Assembly: GCA_023257655.1 (NCBI GenBank)
Contig: JALRBQ010000039.1
Span: forward strand, 1 to 64,000
Length of the DNA stretch: 64,000 bases
Direction: 5' to 3'
From: Pseudomonadales bacterium
GTDB taxonomy: Bacteria; Pseudomonadota; Gammaproteobacteria; Pseudomonadales; Pseudohongiellaceae
The translations under genes and the position numbers were made by a program. This document shows positions 12,009 to 59,446 of the stretch, one piece after another (positions within the stretch are counted from its first letter, which is position 1; every line of letters starts with the position of its first letter). The notes beneath the pieces were generated by a model that saw nothing but the letters and a program-made list of their open reading frames with translations, was not told the origin of the DNA and ran no database searches.

Positions 12009-13333
12009 TTACGGCAGCCCAGTTGTTGTGTCAGATTGGGATCGCGACAGCCTGTATTCCCTGGTACCGATTACGAGCCGAAGTTGTTTGGCGCCCTCGA
12101 AATAGGGCTTCCATAGCCTGATCGAGACCGGCACCGAGACGTTCAGCAGGAAGGCGGTCGCCATCAGGGTGTAGAACGCCTCGGTTGTGATGATGGAGTT
12201 CTGCACGTAGCCGATGTCCATCACGATAAACGCCAGCTCCGCACGGCCCAGCATACCGAGACCAATGAGAATGCTCTCATGCCAGGCGTAGTTACCGGTC
12301 ATTCGCGCCGCAAGAGTCGCGGAACCGATCTGGGCGATAATCAAGCCTGCGGTCAGCGCCAGCACCTGCGGTAAAACAGCAAACAGGACGCTTTGGTCAA
12401 ATACCAGTTGCGTGCCGAGCTCGACGAAGAACACCGGTCCGATCCATGAGAAAGCGACGTTATCGACGATCTTCTTGGTCTGGGCGTAGTGGTCTTCAGT
12501 GGCGTCTTCGGAGAAACGAAAATACTGCTGTTTGATGATGAGGCCAGCCATGTAAGCGCCGACTGCCGGATGGAATCCGAATTCATGGGAAACCAGGCTG
12601 ATCAGCAGCGCCACTAGCAGTACCGCGAGCGTGGCCTGATCTCCGCGCTTGAAGCCGATCAAATCGATAATGCCAAAGCGTGAGAGCACCGGTAGCTGCC
12701 TGAACAGCCAGGTGTCGCCTTCATGGGGAAATATGATGAGTTCAAGCATTGTGATGAACAGGAAGAAGGCGACGACTTTGATGAGCACGAGCGCGACACT
12801 CGCCAAAGTTAGATCGGCGGTACCCGTCGCGAGTGGCACCAGCACAGCCACTGCGGCGAGGGCGGCGATATCATCGAGGATGGCCGAAGTCATGATGCCG
12901 GTTGCTGCGGAGGTGTGCTAAAGGTTTTCACTCTTTAAGGAAACCATCGTGAGCGAGACGGCCGTGGCGGTCATCGCCAGGCCACACATGATCGACAGTC
13001 GTGGTTCGTTCCAGAAATACAGCGTGACATAGTAGGCGAGTGCGAATGGAGCGATGGCGCCGAACAACGCGATGCCCCAGCTGCGTTTGATACTTGCGAT
13101 AAAGAACTCGGTGTCCTCCTCGAAGCCGAGGGCGAACATAATCAGGATGATGCCGAGTTCTGAGAAGCCGCGAATGAATTCGCTACTCTCCTGAGGTAGC
13201 AGGCCCAGATTGACCATCAGCGAGCCGAAGGCGAGGAAATACAGGACGGGCGTCAGCTTTGTTCGATCGGCGAGGAAACAGGAGAGGAAAACGCCCCCCC
13301 CCAGATAAGTGCCAGAAACAGCATGTCCTGCAT
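12009..13333 (-). pseudogene. CPA2-family cation/proton antiporter, broken by frameshift and amber stop
   Basis: Membrane transporter of the Kef/NhaP-like monovalent cation:H+ antiporter family, in three pieces. From ATG 13333 the frame reads MQDMLFLALIWGG and then fails at a run of nine G (plus-strand C tract 13294-13302); ten G would join it to MVNLGLLPQESSEF at 13217. That frame continues through GFSELGIILIMFALGF to ENL, meets TAG at 12918-12920, and then goes on in the same frame as HTSAATGIMTSAILDDIAAL to 12009. Joined, the protein has about 12 membrane segments and normal family order. With two lesions it is probably inactive. A CAG-to-TAG change would explain the stop. Confidence 0.8.
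13294..13302. repeat. Nine-C homopolymer at the antiporter frameshift
   Basis: Nine consecutive C on the plus strand lie inside the antiporter coding region, exactly where the frame is lost. Such tracts slip during replication and are used for phase variation in some bacteria. They are also a common site of sequencing length error. Confidence 0.7.
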
Positions 13334-13418
13334 GGATTTAACCCAGCGCCATTGCGAAGCCTGACTTTAGCGCGATGGTTTCGCGCTGGCATTGATCTGG
13401 TCGATATTCGCTGGCGGT

Positions 13419-33279: not shown

Positions 33280-33702
33280 AACGTACCCTCGTTAATGCTG
33301 GCAAGAGACTACCAAAGCTACTCGCAAGACACTAGCACTGTTGGCGATAGCGTGACCCGGCAAGCGCCAGTCAGTCGCAACGGCAGACAGTCGGCCAGAG
33401 TATCCTGGTACCAGGCGGCGGGCTTCCAAAAGCAGTACAAGTAATGTGCTCAACTCCCGCTGAGGCAATCCTCGATTCGTAGACACAGTGAGAGAATTTG
33501 ACTATTCTGCGGGCTGAGCAAGTAGCCGTTTCGTCGGCGACGGGTGAATCGCTTTGCGACTTCGCAGCGTGCTTGCAATCCGGGTGCAACCTCGTTTCGT
33601 TTGCATCACCCCGAACGGGTAGTGAGCACTCGTGCTACATTGCTAGCACCCAAATTGCATTGCATACATCAAGTTTTGGAGTCCTTGCAAGAGAGTCCTT
33701 GC
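33280..33702. other. Divergent intergenic region between protease and kinase genes
   Basis: About 420 bp that should hold both promoters. A direct repeat GAGTCCTTGCA occurs twice immediately before the kinase start (about 33680-33703). Short frames here show no conserved protein. No RNA gene seen. Confidence 0.4.
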
Positions 33703-35517
33703 ATGGCCATTGGAGTGATTCGCAAATATCTGCCGGTTTTGCTCACCTTCGTGGTCGTGGCAGCGTTCTCGTTCACGGCCTTTCTGATTTCTCTCAACTC
33801 CCAGCACAATAGCGTCAAGATTCGATTTGACCAAACTGCTGCATTGCAAGCATCGATACTGCAACGCGCGCTCACCAACCATCGGCTCATCCTGCAATCG
33901 ATGGAGTCACTCTACGCCCGTTCGGCCGCAAGTTCGCGCTCCGGTTTCGGTGGGTTCGTGCAACCCTTCGAATCAGAGTTGGCCGGTGTGTAGGCATTGC
34001 AATGGGTGCAACTGGTGCGTGATGAAGAGCGCGACGAATTCGAACAGGCGCGACGCGCCGAGGGAGTGACCGGTTACGAGATTCGGGAGCGGGCCGCGGA
34101 CGGCACCATGGTGCGCGCCTCGCGTCGAGCGATCTACTATCCGATTTATCCTGTACAGCCTCTGGACTCAGGTGAGGCCACCATTGGCTATGATCTGGGA
34201 TCAGACCCGGTCAGGCACATGGCGGTGCAACAGGCGATTGCCAGTGGCGAAGCCACCGCCACCGATTGGGTGAATCTGATACAGGGGCACGGAGAAGTGG
34301 ATCCGGGTTTTCTGATTATCAGCCCGCTGTACGCCAATTCTGTTGACGCCGCTACAGCGTCAGGAGATCTGGTAGGTCTGGTTGTGGGCGTGTTTCGGAT
34401 ACCCGCCATCATTGAAGCAGGTCAGCGTCTGCTGAGTGAGCCAGGTATCGAGCTGACAATCGCCGAGACAATTCCGTCGGGTCGCAGTCTCAGCTTTCCC
34501 GAGTTGTCTGGGCCTGGTAAAGGCGCTTCGCGCAGCATGCTGGCGATGGCGCCACCCGCAGCCTACTAAGCGGAGATTCCCATTGCGGGCAAGCGCTGGC
34601 ACTTTGTGGCGAGCCCGGCGGCCGGCTACATGAATGACAAGTTGCCCTATACCTCCTGGCTGATACTTCTGAGTGGGGTGTTGTTTACCTGTCTGCTCTC
34701 CGGATTCCTGTGGCTGTATACGCGGCAGTCGATCCGGCGTGAACAGTCTGTCAGTGAGAAACATGCGCTCGAGATGCAGCTCATGCGCGCGCAGAAAATG
34801 GAGACGATGGGGTTGTTGGTCACGGGTATCACCCATGATTTCAATAATATCCTCGGCAGCCTGATGGGCTTCAATGATCTCGCGCGCCTGCATAATCGCA
34901 AGACGGCGCAAGATCCGAAGCTCGAGGACTTTCTGGTAAAGGTGGGCACGAGTGCGTCGCGCGGCAAGGAACTCATCGACAAGATGCTCAGGTTCTCTCG
35001 CGAGAAGCCCTCGCACATCGAACCGATTTTCCTGCATTCCGCCGTGGAAAATACGCTGGCTCTCATCGGACCACTGATGCCGTCCAGAATTCGGATTGAA
35101 TTCTTCGCCGATAATGGGCTGCCGGCTGTGATGGCGGATTCGGTAGGCCTCGGGCAGGCATTGGCCAATCTGCTCATCAACGCGCGCGACGCCATCGAAG
35201 GTGAGGGAAAGATCAAACTCGACCTGAGTTACTGAGAATTTAATGCAGCCCACTGCAGCGCCTGCAAAGGACCGTTCAGCGGCGACTATGTCCAGCTCTC
35301 GGTCAGTGATACCGGTACCGGCATGAGTGCCGAGGTGCAGCGTGACATCTTCGAGCCGTTCTATTCCACCAAGGAAGCCGACAAGGGTACTGGCATGGGG
35401 CTGGCAATTCTCCAAAGTATCGTGCATCGCTATAACGGCCACATAATCGTCGCCTCCCGTCCAGGACAGGGCACCAGCTTCCTGCTGCTCTTTCCCGTGC
35501 CCAGAAGGCGCGCCTAG
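33703..35517 (+). pseudogene. CHASE-domain hybrid-type sensor histidine kinase interrupted by three in-frame stops
   Basis: Membrane sensor kinase whose single reading frame contains TAG (33991-33993, codon 97), TAA (34567-34569, codon 289) and TGA (35233-35235, codon 511), with conserved sequence continuing across each. Order: helix 1 (YLPVLLTFVVVAAFSF), CHASE domain (ELAGV-stop-ALQWVQLVRDE, where homologues have GIQALEW), helix 2 (LILLSGVLFTCLLSGFLWL), dimerisation/phosphoacceptor helix (VTGITHDFNNILGSL with the His), and ATPase (NLLINARDAI, VSDTGTGMS, KGTGMGLAIL). One C-to-T change explains each stop (CAG, CAA, CGA). No response regulator is adjacent. Almost certainly non-functional unless all three are read through. 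Confidence 0.85.
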
Positions 35518-42573: not shown

Positions 42574-44772
42574 CTAGTGCAGTCGCAACACGTAGCTCAC
42601 CAGGAGCAGGTGTCCGTTATAGGCAGGACTGGAATTTCCCGGCAACAACACATTGGACAGCGTGTTGGTAGTGACCCCGTCCAGCGCCCAATCACTGGAA
42701 TTGAGATCTTCGTAATAATAGTTGAGCTGCAATTCCCGGTCGCTCCCCAAGTCATAGTTGGCGGTGAGGCTGACGTTTTTGATCAGGGTGCTGACCGCGG
42801 GCAGGGGAGCCCGGTTGAGTCCGCTGCTGGCCGATTCCGTGGTGGTGACAGCGTCGGCATCGCTGAGGTCGAGGCCGAGCTGCAGGCGGCTGTCGAGCAG
42901 GTCCCAGTCGATGCCCAGGCCGGTGGTAGACACCTGATCCGTACTCTTCACGCGCCAGGCATTGCCCGGCAGGCGCACCGACGCAGGGTAGAACGGCGTC
43001 GGGTTGCCGCCACCGCTACGGGCGTAACCTGCCTGCCGATTGAGGTAGTCATCAAGCGCGTAATAGATACTGGCCTGCCATCCAGTGCCGGGATTCAGGG
43101 AGAGGTCGAAGGCGAGATTGCGGCGCCGGGAATCGAGCAGGCCTACTGTCGAATCGGGATAGTCGTCTGCGCTGCGTTTGGCGAGAACACTGAAGGCGAG
43201 CGCGTCTGTGGGAAAGAAATTGACGCTGCTGCTTAACTCGTCGCGATCACGGTCGGTCAGATGGTAGCGACGCAGGAACGGATCATTCTCAAACAGTTCA
43301 TCCCCGATGAGTGTGGCGATGAAATCAGGGTTGTGGCCGGCACGCAGGGGAATCGTGCTGTCGTAGGCAGTCGCATCCCGCTCTGCATGGCTGAGCTTGA
43401 GCCAGCCATTGGCTCGGCTGCCAGCGGTGAAGTTGTACTTGAGGTAACCGGTGTCTTCGCGCGTGCGTGCGACATCCACACTGCTGCGATCCTTGCTCTC
43501 ATGCCCGAGGCCGAAGGCCAGGCGGCGGGCACCACCCAGCCGCAGGCTCAGGTCGGCCTCGATACGGGAGGTTTGCAAGTCATACAACCGGTTGCGACGG
43601 GCGTTGATACTGAGCGGATCGGCCTGGTTGGCGGCATCGCCGGCGACGCGCAGGTTCAGAGCTTGTGGAGTCTTGTTGTCGCAATCGGTGTAGTTGCCGC
43701 GCAGACGTAACAGCAAGCGACGCGACAGGGTGCGGGAATAATTGAGACTGGCGACAAGAGTATCGACCCGCCCTGCAAGATCGGTGCGCGGCAACGGCAC
43801 CGGGGCTGCCAGTGCGCTGCTATAGGGCAGAAAGCGATCATCCTGCTCGAGCCGGGTCGTGCTCAGAGATCCACTCAGTCGACCGCCGTCATCGAAGGTA
43901 TGGGCGCCGCTAAATTGCAATTGCGAGGAGCGCGTATCGGGTTCCAGTGCCATTTGGCCGAAGGCGCCATCACGGTAACTGGCCCCGCTCGGCCACTGCG
44001 GGTTATTGAAAGGGTTCTGCCAGCTCAAGCTGGCATCATGATTGCTGAACAGCATCGCATTATAGCTAAAGCTGTACTGAGAGCGGGCGCCGGTACGATT
44101 GAGTCCGAGCTCGATGGTGTCGGTCTCGAAATCGATAGGTCGTGCGAGCAGGGCGCCGCGTGGATTCCCTCCCGTTGAGCCGAAAATAGCGCCAAGTGTC
44201 TCTTCTCCCTGCTTGGTTTCATGGCGATACTCGCCAGCGAATTGCCAGGCATCGCTTAACTGCATGGTCAGGCCGGTGGTGAGTCGCTGGCGTTGTTTGT
44301 CCACCTGCATCGGTAGCAAAGAGGCATCGAGAGTGCTCAGGCCAGCGCTCGAATTGGCGCCAACCCAGTTGGCCGGCAAGGTCTGAAGCGCGCTGCCGCT
44401 GCCCCGGAAGGGAGTTTTGCCATCCTCGAACCGATAGTGGGGTAGCTGGTCGCCACGGAGAAAAAAGCGGAAGCGCCCGCTGCGCCCATAGTCCAGTGTG
44501 AAGCCGCCTGTGTCGAGACCGAGGTTGCGCCCCGTGACAGACCAATAGCCGGCATCGCTGGCAGTGGGGGTGGAGCGCCAGTCCAATTGCACGGCGGCAA
44601 AGGGCCCGTCGTCGGTGATGCCGGTAAAGCGCCCGAAGCGGTAGGAGTCGAGGCTGTTAAGACCCAGCCCGATAGCAAGGCTGTTCTCGGGAATGGTGAC
44701 AGTCTGAGCCAGCACCGGCGCGGTGAGCACGGCGGTGAACAAGGGCAAGGCGTGCGAGTAACGGCGAGTCAT
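42574..44772 (-). CDS. MtrB/PioB-family outer-membrane beta-barrel
   Basis: 732-residue barrel that sheathes a decaheme cytochrome through the outer membrane so electrons can cross. Signal peptide ends APVLAQ. The protein is built of alternating short amphipathic strands; family features include the N-terminal GLGLNSLDSYRFGRFTGI and a series of extracellular turns, and the last strand is LLLVSYVLRLH. MtrB-type length is normal (about 650-750). It follows the decaheme cytochrome gene by 10 bp, so the two are co-transcribed. No outer-surface MtrC-type cytochrome or DMSO reductase gene is present. Confidence 0.87.
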   Translation of the reverse strand: MTRRYSHALPLFTAVLTAPVLAQTVTIPENSLAIGLGLNSLDSYRFGRFTGITDDGPFAAVQLDWRSTPTASDAGYWSVTGRNLGLDTGGFTLDYGRSGRFRFFLRGDQLPHYRFEDGKTPFRGSGSALQTLPANWVGANSSAGLSTLDASLLPMQVDKQRQRLTTGLTMQLSDAWQFAGEYRHETKQGEETLGAIFGSTGGNPRGALLARPIDFETDTIELGLNRTGARSQYSFSYNAMLFSNHDASLSWQNPFNNPQWPSGASYRDGAFGQMALEPDTRSSQLQFSGAHTFDDGGRLSGSLSTTRLEQDDRFLPYSSALAAPVPLPRTDLAGRVDTLVASLNYSRTLSRRLLLRLRGNYTDCDNKTPQALNLRVAGDAANQADPLSINARRNRLYDLQTSRIEADLSLRLGGARRLAFGLGHESKDRSSVDVARTREDTGYLKYNFTAGSRANGWLKLSHAERDATAYDSTIPLRAGHNPDFIATLIGDELFENDPFLRRYHLTDRDRDELSSSVNFFPTDALAFSVLAKRSADDYPDSTVGLLDSRRRNLAFDLSLNPGTGWQASIYYALDDYLNRQAGYARSGGGNPTPFYPASVRLPGNAWRVKSTDQVSTTGLGIDWDLLDSRLQLGLDLSDADAVTTTESASSGLNRAPLPAVSTLIKNVSLTANYDLGSDRELQLNYYYEDLNSSDWALDGVTTNTLSNVLLPGNSSPAYNGHLLLVSYVLRLH

Positions 44773-44782
44773 CGCGAAGTCC

Positions 44783-45733
44783 TCAGCGCGTCAGGCGCGA
44801 GCCTGAGGGATGGTTGGAACCGTGCACTTGCGAGTGGCAGTTGGTGCAGGATGATCCGAGCATCTGCTGGGCAGCACCTGCAGGAGGAATGCCGGTGCCG
44901 CTGTACAGAGTGCTGGGATGGAACGCATCGGAGTGGCAGGTCTGACACAGAAACGGTGGCCGTGCGCTCAATAATCTACTCTGGGTCGATCCGTGGGGAT
45001 TATGACAGTTGGTACACCCATCAGTAACCGGTTCGTGCTCCCACAGGAATGGCCCGCGCTTCTCGCTGTGACATTCTGTACACGTGTCGTTGATCGAGGC
45101 CTTCGCCAGCAGGGACTGGGTGTCGGAGCCATGGGGATTATGACAGTTGGTACAGGTCATCAGGCCCTCGAGCAGAGGGTGGTGGCTGCGCAGATTGAGC
45201 TGCGAGCGTTTCTCCAGATGGCAGCCCATGCACAATTCAATACTGGCCTGTCCCTGTGGTACCAGATCGCCGGACTAGTGAATCTGGTGACAGCTGGCGC
45301 AGGCGAGGCCGGCGAATTCGTGTTCGCTGCTAGCCCAGTGCAGGCGTTGGCCGGACTCGTGGCAGCTCAGGCATTGGGCGTTCTGCGTCGCAATGTCACT
45401 GGCCGGGATCAGCCCGCCCTTGAAGACGACTCCGGGGGATTGCATCGACCGATAATGTGTGGGACTCGCCCCATGGCAGCTCTCACATTGATGTTGGGCG
45501 AATGGTGTCCCGGGATTGGACTGCAGCGCATGGATAGAATCCAGTACCGGTGTGACGGCCGGATTTGTGTGACAGGTGAGGCAGGTGGCCGCACCTTGCG
45601 GGGCATACTGCGGCTCGGAGTCGATTGCATCGGGGGTCTGTGCGGCACTGCCAGACAGGAAGATTCCCGCGAGCATGCCGACGCATGCCAATGGCAGTAG
45701 TGCACGCAGCGCGTATCGGAGTGATGTCCGCAT
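44783..45733 (-). pseudogene. Decaheme MtrA/DmsE/PioA-type cytochrome c with in-frame amber codon
   Basis: Periplasmic side electron conduit, 316 residues if read through. Signal peptide about 1-31. CxxCH motifs before the stop: CLTCH, CESCH, CLSCH, CASCH; after it: CMGCH, CTNCH, CTECH, CTNCH, CQTCH, CTNCH. That is exactly the ten hemes of MtrA/DmsE. A TAG at 45275-45277 (codon 153) lies in CHQIH-stop-SGDLVPQG, in the same frame on both sides; CAG would restore Gln. The gene is followed by an intact MtrB-like gene. It is either a recent null allele, a sequence error, or read through. If stopped, a four-heme fragment would result. Confidence 0.85.
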
Positions 45734-58023: not shown

Positions 58024-58809
58024 ATGTCACAGTCTGACAATGCATCAAATGCCCTGTTTTCAACACCAGTTGTTCTGGATCTGCCGTGGCAAGGCAGGCA
58101 CCTGCCGGAGCAGTCCTACGGTGAATCGGGACAGGGTTTCGATATCCACTATCCGACATCGGAGCAGGCGCGACTGCCGGTAGTCATCCTCGTCACTGGC
58201 TATTCCGATACGGGCTACCTCAAGGTGACCGGAATGCGCATCAAGGATACCGCACAAACGCGTTCCTGGGCCCGTCTCCTGGCTGCCAGTGGCATTGCAG
58301 CAATCACCTATGCCTCGTTGGATCCGGTGCAAGATGTTATGAAATTGCACCGGTTCCTCACATCTCGCAGTGCCGAGCTGGGACTGGACATGACCCGGCT
58401 CGGCATTCTTTCCCTTTCGGGCAATGTGCCGAATGCCCTGCATTTTTTGGGTGAGGTGGAAACTGTTCGCTGCGCAGCACTCTGTTATGGTTTTATGCGC
58501 GATGGCGCTGATGATCCGGGGGTGAGCGAGGCTTCCTCGCAATTTCGCTTTGCCATGCCAGCTGACAGCAAGCCGGTACCGGCAGGGTCGGCCCTGTTGC
58601 TGGTACGGGCTGGACAGGATCAGTTTGCGGCGCTCAATCGCTCCATCGACCGTGAGGTGGCTGATGCTCTGGCGAACAACCGGGAGCTGGAATTCATCAA
58701 TTATGCCGCCGGCGTGCACGCCTTCGATATCCTCGATGATTCTCCACGGTCACGGCAGATTGTAAGGCGGATTCTGGGATACTTCAGCGAGCGCCTGGCG
58801 GAGGTTTAA
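58024..58809 (+). CDS. Alpha/beta hydrolase (dienelactone hydrolase-like)
   Basis: 261 residues, cytosolic (no signal). Core fold: PVVILVTGYSDTGYLK in the oxyanion strand, LGILSLSGNVPNALHF as nucleophile elbow (S-x-S-G-N, Ser nucleophile but not canonical G-x-S-x-G), LLLVRAGQDQF with the Asp and NYAAGVHAFDI with the His. These residues are where a triad would be expected. Substrate unknown. CAGGAG lies 7 bp upstream of the ATG. The next gene is convergent and its stop overlaps this one. Confidence 0.78.
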   Translation: MSQSDNASNALFSTPVVLDLPWQGRHLPEQSYGESGQGFDIHYPTSEQARLPVVILVTGYSDTGYLKVTGMRIKDTAQTRSWARLLAASGIAAITYASLDPVQDVMKLHRFLTSRSAELGLDMTRLGILSLSGNVPNALHFLGEVETVRCAALCYGFMRDGADDPGVSEASSQFRFAMPADSKPVPAGSALLLVRAGQDQFAALNRSIDREVADALANNRELEFINYAAGVHAFDILDDSPRSRQIVRRILGYFSERLAEV

Positions 58810-59282
58810 CGCGCGCCAGTGCCGGACTCGATCTCAGCCACAATGGCGTCGACTTGGGCGCGGAAGGCCGGGGCATACCAGTCCCGGTCGGCGCGCCATA
58901 GTACCCGTGCCGACGAGGTTTGCATCTGGGCGCGCCAGCGCACCATACGGGGCTCAAATTCGTTGGGATCGAACAGGCCTTGCTCGTATTGATAATACGA
59001 ATTCTCCCATTCCCGCCAGACGCCAGCGAGGAATTAGCCATACATCACGGCATGCTGGGGACTCATCTTGTCGAGCCCCTGTGCGGCGGCCGCCACGGCC
59101 AGCGCCATCTCCGGTTCCGTCGTCACCCACTCTGAAAACATCATCTGTTTCTCGGTGATTGCATCTCGGGCCTGAGAACGCATCATCTCTGTGTTCTGGC
59201 GGATTTCCAGACCCAGGAACAGAATGCCCAGCAGCACGCTCATGCTGGTCGCGATGTTGACCCATTTTTCGAAGTTTTTCAT
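58806..59282 (-). pseudogene. Small membrane-anchored protein with in-frame ochre codon
   Basis: One frame of 159 codons, interrupted by TAA at 59034-59036 (codon 83). Before the stop: an N-terminal helix (WVNIATSMSVLLGILFLGLEI) followed by RQNTEMMRSQARDAITEKQM. After it, in the same frame: FLAGVWREWENSYYQYEQGL, FDPNEFEPRMVRWRAQM and a Cys-free helical tail. The two parts together match a common unnamed gammaproteobacterial exported protein pattern (RxxWENxxYQYxxGLxD). A CAA-to-TAA change would explain the stop. Function unknown. The end overlaps the stop of the hydrolase gene on the other strand. Confidence 0.7.
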
Positions 59283-59446
59283 ACGGATAACCCATGGATG
59301 GACTCGGCTAATAATACCGGATCGCTCACAATTTGCTGCAATTTATTGTTTGTGTATCGGACGGAGTCAATGCTAATTTACGCCTCGACCCCACTCCGGT
59401 TACGCAGAGAAATTCGGCAGGAATAATAACAATACGGAATTAGTGC

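Follow-up and report, generated by a model that had tools for sequence, protein, structure and literature searches.

What does a single in-frame TAG codon mean in a gene that otherwise has every appearance of encoding a decaheme c-type cytochrome of an extracellular electron conduit: recent loss of the gene, decoding of the codon, a division into two useful proteins, or a wrong base in the assembly? The gene in question lies in a 64,000-nucleotide stretch of DNA from a Pseudomonadales bacterium, the whole of which is referred to here as the window.

A Decaheme Cytochrome Frame Divided by One TAG Codon

The original prediction gave the gene its correct coordinates and left its strand unstated; the strand is minus (Table 1), and translation of the plus strand over 44783–45733 yielded stops and no series of CxxCH motifs. 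On the minus strand the motifs CLTCH, CESCH, CLSCH, and CASCH precede the TAG and the motifs CMGCH, CTNCH, CTECH, CTNCH, CQTCH, and CTNCH follow it, in agreement with the ten hemes, four and six around the stop, that had been counted before. Ten motifs within one conserved frame that spans a single stop are not a chance arrangement. By inspection, the hydrophobic N terminus of the pre-stop part looks like a signal peptide, and the product of a restart within the post-stop part would be without one.

Table 1. Location of the decaheme gene, its mtrB neighbor, and other interrupted genes (window coordinates unless a locus is named)
Feature	Position	Strand	Remarks
mtrA/dmsE-like decaheme cytochrome frame	44783..45733	-	316 codons + TGA; TAG at codon 153
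Start codon ATG	45733..45731	-	
In-frame TAG (amber)	45275..45277	-	codon 153; next base T
Terminal TGA	44785..44783	-	
Pre-stop part	45278..45733	-	152 codons; four CxxCH; hydrophobic N terminus
Post-stop part	44783..45274	-	163 codons + TGA; six CxxCH; conservation kept
mtrB/pioB-like outer-membrane barrel gene, intact	42574..44772	-	732 aa; PF11854 402.4 bits, TIGR03509 366.3 bits
Na/H exchanger	12012-13337	-	TAG at 12920; apparent N-terminal frameshift
CHASE/HisKA/HATPase sensor kinase	33526-35514	+	TAG 33991, TAA 34567, TGA 35233; domains otherwise coherent
Small ORF, seemingly continued across the stop	58809-59342	-	TAA at 59036; no Pfam match; unconfirmed
KAS III-like gene	L044:13905-14555		TAA (C17:78270); frameshift ~260 bp upstream of TAA
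MscS-type channel	L091:13846-14688		TAA (C15:54208) within beta-domain
COX1-family oxidase subunit	L093:14218-15666		single TAA (C15:94874); frame otherwise full-length
DUF1631 gene	L134:15774-17339		TAG (C19:37064) within match

The family to which the gene belongs is clear when the frame is translated through the TAG. The read-through frame matched TIGR03508 ("DmsE family decaheme c-type cytochrome") over the whole of the model (positions 1–258 of 258) with a score of 282.9 bits, the cut-off being 192.2, and residues 33–315 of the read-through protein matched chain A of PDB entry 6r2q with an E value of 2.1e-77. The molecule name displayed for the latter match, "Cystathionine beta-synthase," is odd; we take the chain to be MtrA of the Shewanella complex. 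This identification fits the account in PMC7198977. The gene shares with the decaheme cytochromes of the DmsE/MtrA family a full-length match, ten CxxCH motifs in one frame (which the TAG separates into four and six), all 63 of 63 strongly conserved columns, and an mtrB gene directly downstream, and it differs from them by one in-frame TAG at codon 153. An intact paralog that might cover for the loss of the gene was considered and rejected: a search of the genome of origin with the read-through protein, at an E value of 0.001, returned no match besides the protein itself, and the Paired_CXXCH_1 family was found at three places only, all of them within this decaheme gene.

An Intact mtrB Gene and a Two-Gene Conduit

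The start of the MtrB-like gene lies 10 bp past the TGA of the decaheme gene, and its frame contains no internal stop, just as had been claimed when the downstream gene was described as free of lesions. The pair looks like a two-gene MtrAB-type porin-cytochrome conduit. Conduits of two genes that are named in PMC8805035 are MtoAB, PioAB, and DmsEF; they consist of the same mtrA–mtrB pair, and the window conduit is likewise without a detected partner of the MtrC type. In this respect it differs from MtrCAB, in that the extracellular MtrC/OmcA cytochrome was not found for the window pair. TIGR03507 (OmcA/MtrC family) had no match in the genome of origin, which is 93.4% complete, and none of 14 control genomes scored above the cut-off for this model either. 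The flanks of mtrAB in three other genomes (G010, G024, and G318), to the extent that they were fetched, contained no neighboring open reading frame of at least 100 aa with a CxxCH motif.

The Stop in Comparison with Relatives

We searched two sets of genomes for relatives of the gene. In the set of the 58 nearest genomes, which included that of the window and was searched at an E value of 1e-3, five genomes had a match: the genome of origin, two members of the same genus with full-length copies (G010 and G024), and two genomes outside the genus with short partial matches. The copies in G010 and G024 are about 60% identical to the window protein and have no stop. Within the genus the gene is patchy, being found in two of 36 other genomes; several of these are only 65%–89% complete, and so the true share of carriers may be higher. 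In the second set, which consisted of 390 genomes of the order drawn from a larger group and was searched at a threshold of 1e-20, 28 genomes had a match. Leaving aside that of the genome of origin, we obtained 28 matches from 27 genomes, and no stop lay inside any of these matches. The scan of genome contigs gave 15 loci.

For a comparison at the level of individual positions we used 41 relative loci (L002, L003, L006–L017, and L048–L074), with BLASTP deciding which frame to use; L004, L005, and L018–L020, whose matches were weak and partial, had been excluded beforehand. In 35 of the 41, residues 60–300 of the query are spanned by a single open frame, which has ten CxxCH motifs in 34 cases and eleven in one. 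Five of the other six loci are stop-free within the match, and the sixth, L017, is a partial match. The column that holds the stop in the window is variable among the 35 relatives (threonine in seven, alanine and valine in six each, lysine in four, serine in three, glycine, glutamine, and asparagine in two each, and leucine, glutamate, and proline in one each), and so no particular residue, and no stop, is kept there. A TAG or a split at that position was seen in none of the 35, and the stop appears, as far as seen, to be private to this genome or assembly.

Two features of the relative loci may be recorded here. At L052, L053, L057, and L058 a second open frame of about 455–473 aa with eight CxxCH motifs is present in addition to the decaheme gene, and at L061 the decaheme domain lies within an open frame of 641 aa, about double the usual length, which is possibly a fusion or a long extension.

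The comparison also bears on the proposal that the stop divides the gene into two useful proteins, such as a four-heme periplasmic carrier and a remainder. The N-terminal half does resemble the pentaheme protein NrfB, as seen in a match of residues 36–182 to PDB entry 2ozy and a match of residues 83–171 of the read-through protein to PF22678, and PMC7198977 reports that the chain of hemes in NrfB can be superposed on hemes A1–A5 of MtrA. The cut, however, comes after four hemes and falls within the NrfB-like match. Moreover, hemes are attached in the periplasm, which the six-heme part would not reach, being by inspection without a signal peptide of its own. Finally, a conserved stop with two separate functional proteins in relatives, which the original prediction had named as the finding that would speak against it, was looked for and not found, as none of the 35 relatives is divided. 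On this last ground we reject a two-protein split, which we consider the least probable of all the readings that were weighed.

Constraint on Both Sides of the Stop

How long could the stop have been present? At columns that are at least 90% identical among the 35 relatives, the window protein departs from the consensus at none of 19 before the stop and at none of 44 after it, whereas other uninterrupted members, in a leave-one-out comparison, depart at up to two and up to 11, respectively. All ten motifs are likewise retained, and relaxed constraint past the stop was not detected by this measure. In comparisons of the post-stop part with G010, G024, and G318, dN was 0.22–0.26 and dS was above 2, and the differences from G010 fall mostly at the third codon position (41, 27, and 85 at the three positions). 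The dN/dS and identity figures use only the window sequence, G010, G024, and G318; the underlying alignment also took in the eight-CxxCH frames of L052, L053, L057, and L058 (13 relatives). The post-stop half is the better conserved of the two, and the same holds between G010 and G024, which are 82.8% identical after the stop column and 60.7% identical before it.

An old pseudogene is rejected on the strength of the unaltered conserved columns. Given that these columns and the ten motifs are untouched, the stop is either very recent or an error, an alternative that had been put forward at the outset and that is now borne out by the codon-position pattern, by the retention of 44 of 44 conserved post-stop columns, and by the open frame at 35 of 41 loci. 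Many relatives are also without departures, and so the conserved-column test excludes a long period of decay but not a young null allele. With nonsense-interrupted pseudogenes in general the gene has in common a single stop, intact relatives, and a genome in which there are other lesions; it differs from them in having no detectable relaxation of constraint, and so it would have to be either very young or an artifact.

TAG as a Terminator in This Genome

A further possibility, also mentioned in the original prediction, is that the TAG is decoded by readthrough or suppression, such that a full-length decaheme protein is made. The undiminished conservation past the stop is in keeping with this possibility, as is the fact that the genome has the machinery for selenocysteine incorporation at UGA, and so recoding as such likely occurs in it. 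TAG is nonetheless an ordinary terminator here. It ends 94 of 288 nonoverlapping open reading frames of at least 200 aa in four sampled contigs, and the genome encodes an intact release factor 1 (prfA, 546.7 bits, cut-off 423.25). The search for a suppressor tRNA that had been recommended was carried out: Rfam models detected 29 tRNAs and a tRNA-Sec, and of the 29, ARAGORN reads 27, none with a CTA anticodon, the other two having the anticodons TGT and TTC as judged by eye. No amber-decoding tRNA was therefore seen in the detected set, which is incomplete and to that extent has room for a suppressor. The only match to PylS scored 21.9 bits, far under the cut-off of 178.15. Also contrary to readthrough, the stop is found in none of the 35 relatives, and other genes of the genome are broken in like manner by TAA and TGA.

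The gene thus shares with pyrrolysine and amber-suppressor systems a TAG within a conserved frame and differs from them in that no decoding tRNA was seen, no PylS scored above the cut-off, and TAG is a common terminator. We reject amber recoding on the combined grounds of stop usage, release factor 1, tRNAs, PylS, and the nonconservation of the stop, and consider readthrough very improbable. An elaboration of it, in which an undetected suppressor tRNA or leaky termination would yield a mix of a four-heme carrier and a ten-heme wire and thereby throttle extracellular electron transfer, strikes us as more improbable still. Neither readthrough nor a functional split has positive support.

A case of probable recoding elsewhere in the genome offers a standard of comparison. 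A gene for a peroxiredoxin of the AhpC/TSA family (L120:5173–5985; C14:85662) contains an in-frame TGA in the context TGGU-TMQC, at a codon that by eye seems to be that of the catalytic cysteine. A TxxU motif is listed for Prx selenoproteins in PMC2398784, and the TGGU setting fits it. The genome contains both SelB (contig C43, 366.2 bits, cut-off 242.25) and tRNA-Sec (contig C70, 66.9 bits, gathering threshold 47, anticodon TCA), and the peroxiredoxin is therefore a probable selenoprotein. Real recoding would thus leave recognizable marks in this genome, and the mtrA amber codon is without them; whether the stop is real or an error, it is no evidence of recoding. At L028:107–194 we also observed a second copy of tRNA-Thr(TGT) with a disrupted T-arm, the intact copy being located about 80 bp downstream of it.

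Other Interrupted Genes and the Quality of the Assembly

The genome of origin is a draft of 101 contigs with an estimated completeness of 93.4% and an estimated contamination of 2.5%; it is likely metagenomic, and the assignment to it of C17, the contig that holds mtrA, rests on similar G+C content. We scanned for interrupting stops the whole of C17 (137,686 bases) and pieces of ten other contigs, which together amount to 817,686 bases or about 26% of the genome. Candidates were first assessed by eye and then compared with Pfam, a match across the stop or domains on either side of it being taken as evidence of an interrupted gene, and most of the flagged stops were dismissed by eye as the ordinary ends of neighboring genes. 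The count of broken genes is therefore a reading by eye and not a calibrated rate, and since the tally is of genes interrupted by stops, with genes that have a frameshift only being left out, it gives no ratio of stops to frameshifts.

Six more genes recognized by Pfam were found to be interrupted in the 817,686 bases, by TAG, TAA, or TGA (Table 1). Lesions that involve all three stop codons point to ordinary mutation or to base errors and to nothing that is specific to amber. Counting mtrA and the small open reading frame without a Pfam match, five of the eight broken genes have a single stop and no second recognized lesion. For the DUF1631 gene the profile match breaks off at position 480 of 741, close to where the frame ends, and this gene may have a second lesion. 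A candidate CcmB gene was rejected, its stop being the natural end of the gene.

In sampled pieces of the same-genus genomes G010 and G024 (280 kb) no convincing nonsense-broken gene was found; of two candidates in G024, one (L114:11741) is without a Pfam match and the other (L086:6463) was rejected as a natural gene end, as judged by eye. The share of sequence covered by open reading frames of at least 100 aa was 0.889–0.909 in four sampled contigs, as compared with 0.902 and 0.860 in the same-genus pieces, and so the genome is not grossly decayed.

Recent Inactivation or a Wrong Consensus Base

A real null allele and a wrong consensus base look identical in a single draft assembly and cannot be told apart there. 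The reading that we prefer, and consider reasonably probable, is that the gene is an ordinary MtrA/DmsE gene of an MtrAB-type conduit and that one nonsense change has very recently abolished its function. Its main rival, which we regard as possible though on the whole unlikely, is that the TAG is a base error in the consensus of the draft and that the organism itself has an intact gene. An error is in keeping with the fragmented, incomplete, and slightly contaminated state of the assembly, with the finding that apart from its stop the decaheme gene shows no decay, and with the prevalence of clean single stops among the broken genes. The latter include the MscS-type channel and the COX1-family subunit, whose loss would be unlikely to be natural if it is the only copy. 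The sampled pieces of G010 and G024, with no convincing case, likewise count against a null allele and for an error.

On the other side, the lesions are unevenly distributed. Five of the broken genes (mtrA and the unconfirmed open reading frame included) lie on the 137,686 bases of C17, which was chosen because it holds mtrA, whereas none was recognized across the 200,000 bases sampled from C40 and C88. In addition, the three stops of the histidine kinase gene and the stop together with a frameshift in the KAS III-like gene are poorly explained by uniform single-base errors, and all 23 of the 23 short-chain dehydrogenase hits in the genome are uninterrupted. The uneven spread, with the proviso as to the choice of C17, and the multiply broken genes favor real mutation; the clean single stops, among them the one in the oxidase subunit, are compatible with base error and leave it open.

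If the gene was indeed inactivated by a nonsense change, termination at UAG would release an N-terminal fragment of 152 residues with four hemes. Such a fragment would be unable to bridge MtrB, because in the solved homologous complex, as described in PMC7198977, MtrA extends its N terminus into the periplasm, and it is the C-terminal half that points outward within the barrel and contacts MtrB more extensively. The intact MtrB would thus be left without a working partner. MtrB was not detected in mtrA deletion mutants of Shewanella, according to PMC12175506, and by analogy the intact mtrB gene here probably yields little working barrel. The loss would be tolerable, in that the gene is patchy in the genus and no MtrC-type partner was found.

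Provided that the stop is real, loss of the electron conduit would be a sound expectation, and the locus would capture an accessory conduit for electrons at the point of being lost, while its barrel partner is still intact. If the stop is an error, the locus is instead a warning against inferring a capability, or the loss of one, from a single base of an assembly. Among the literature matches listed, none, as judged by title, dealt with a nonsense codon in mtrA.

Finally, we note that another genome of the same genus (G003), in which there was no MtrA match, contains only a C-terminal piece of MtrB (L088:7092–7754), an open frame of 224 aa near the end of a contig. This piece possibly represents a second loss of the pair or else the edge of an assembly.
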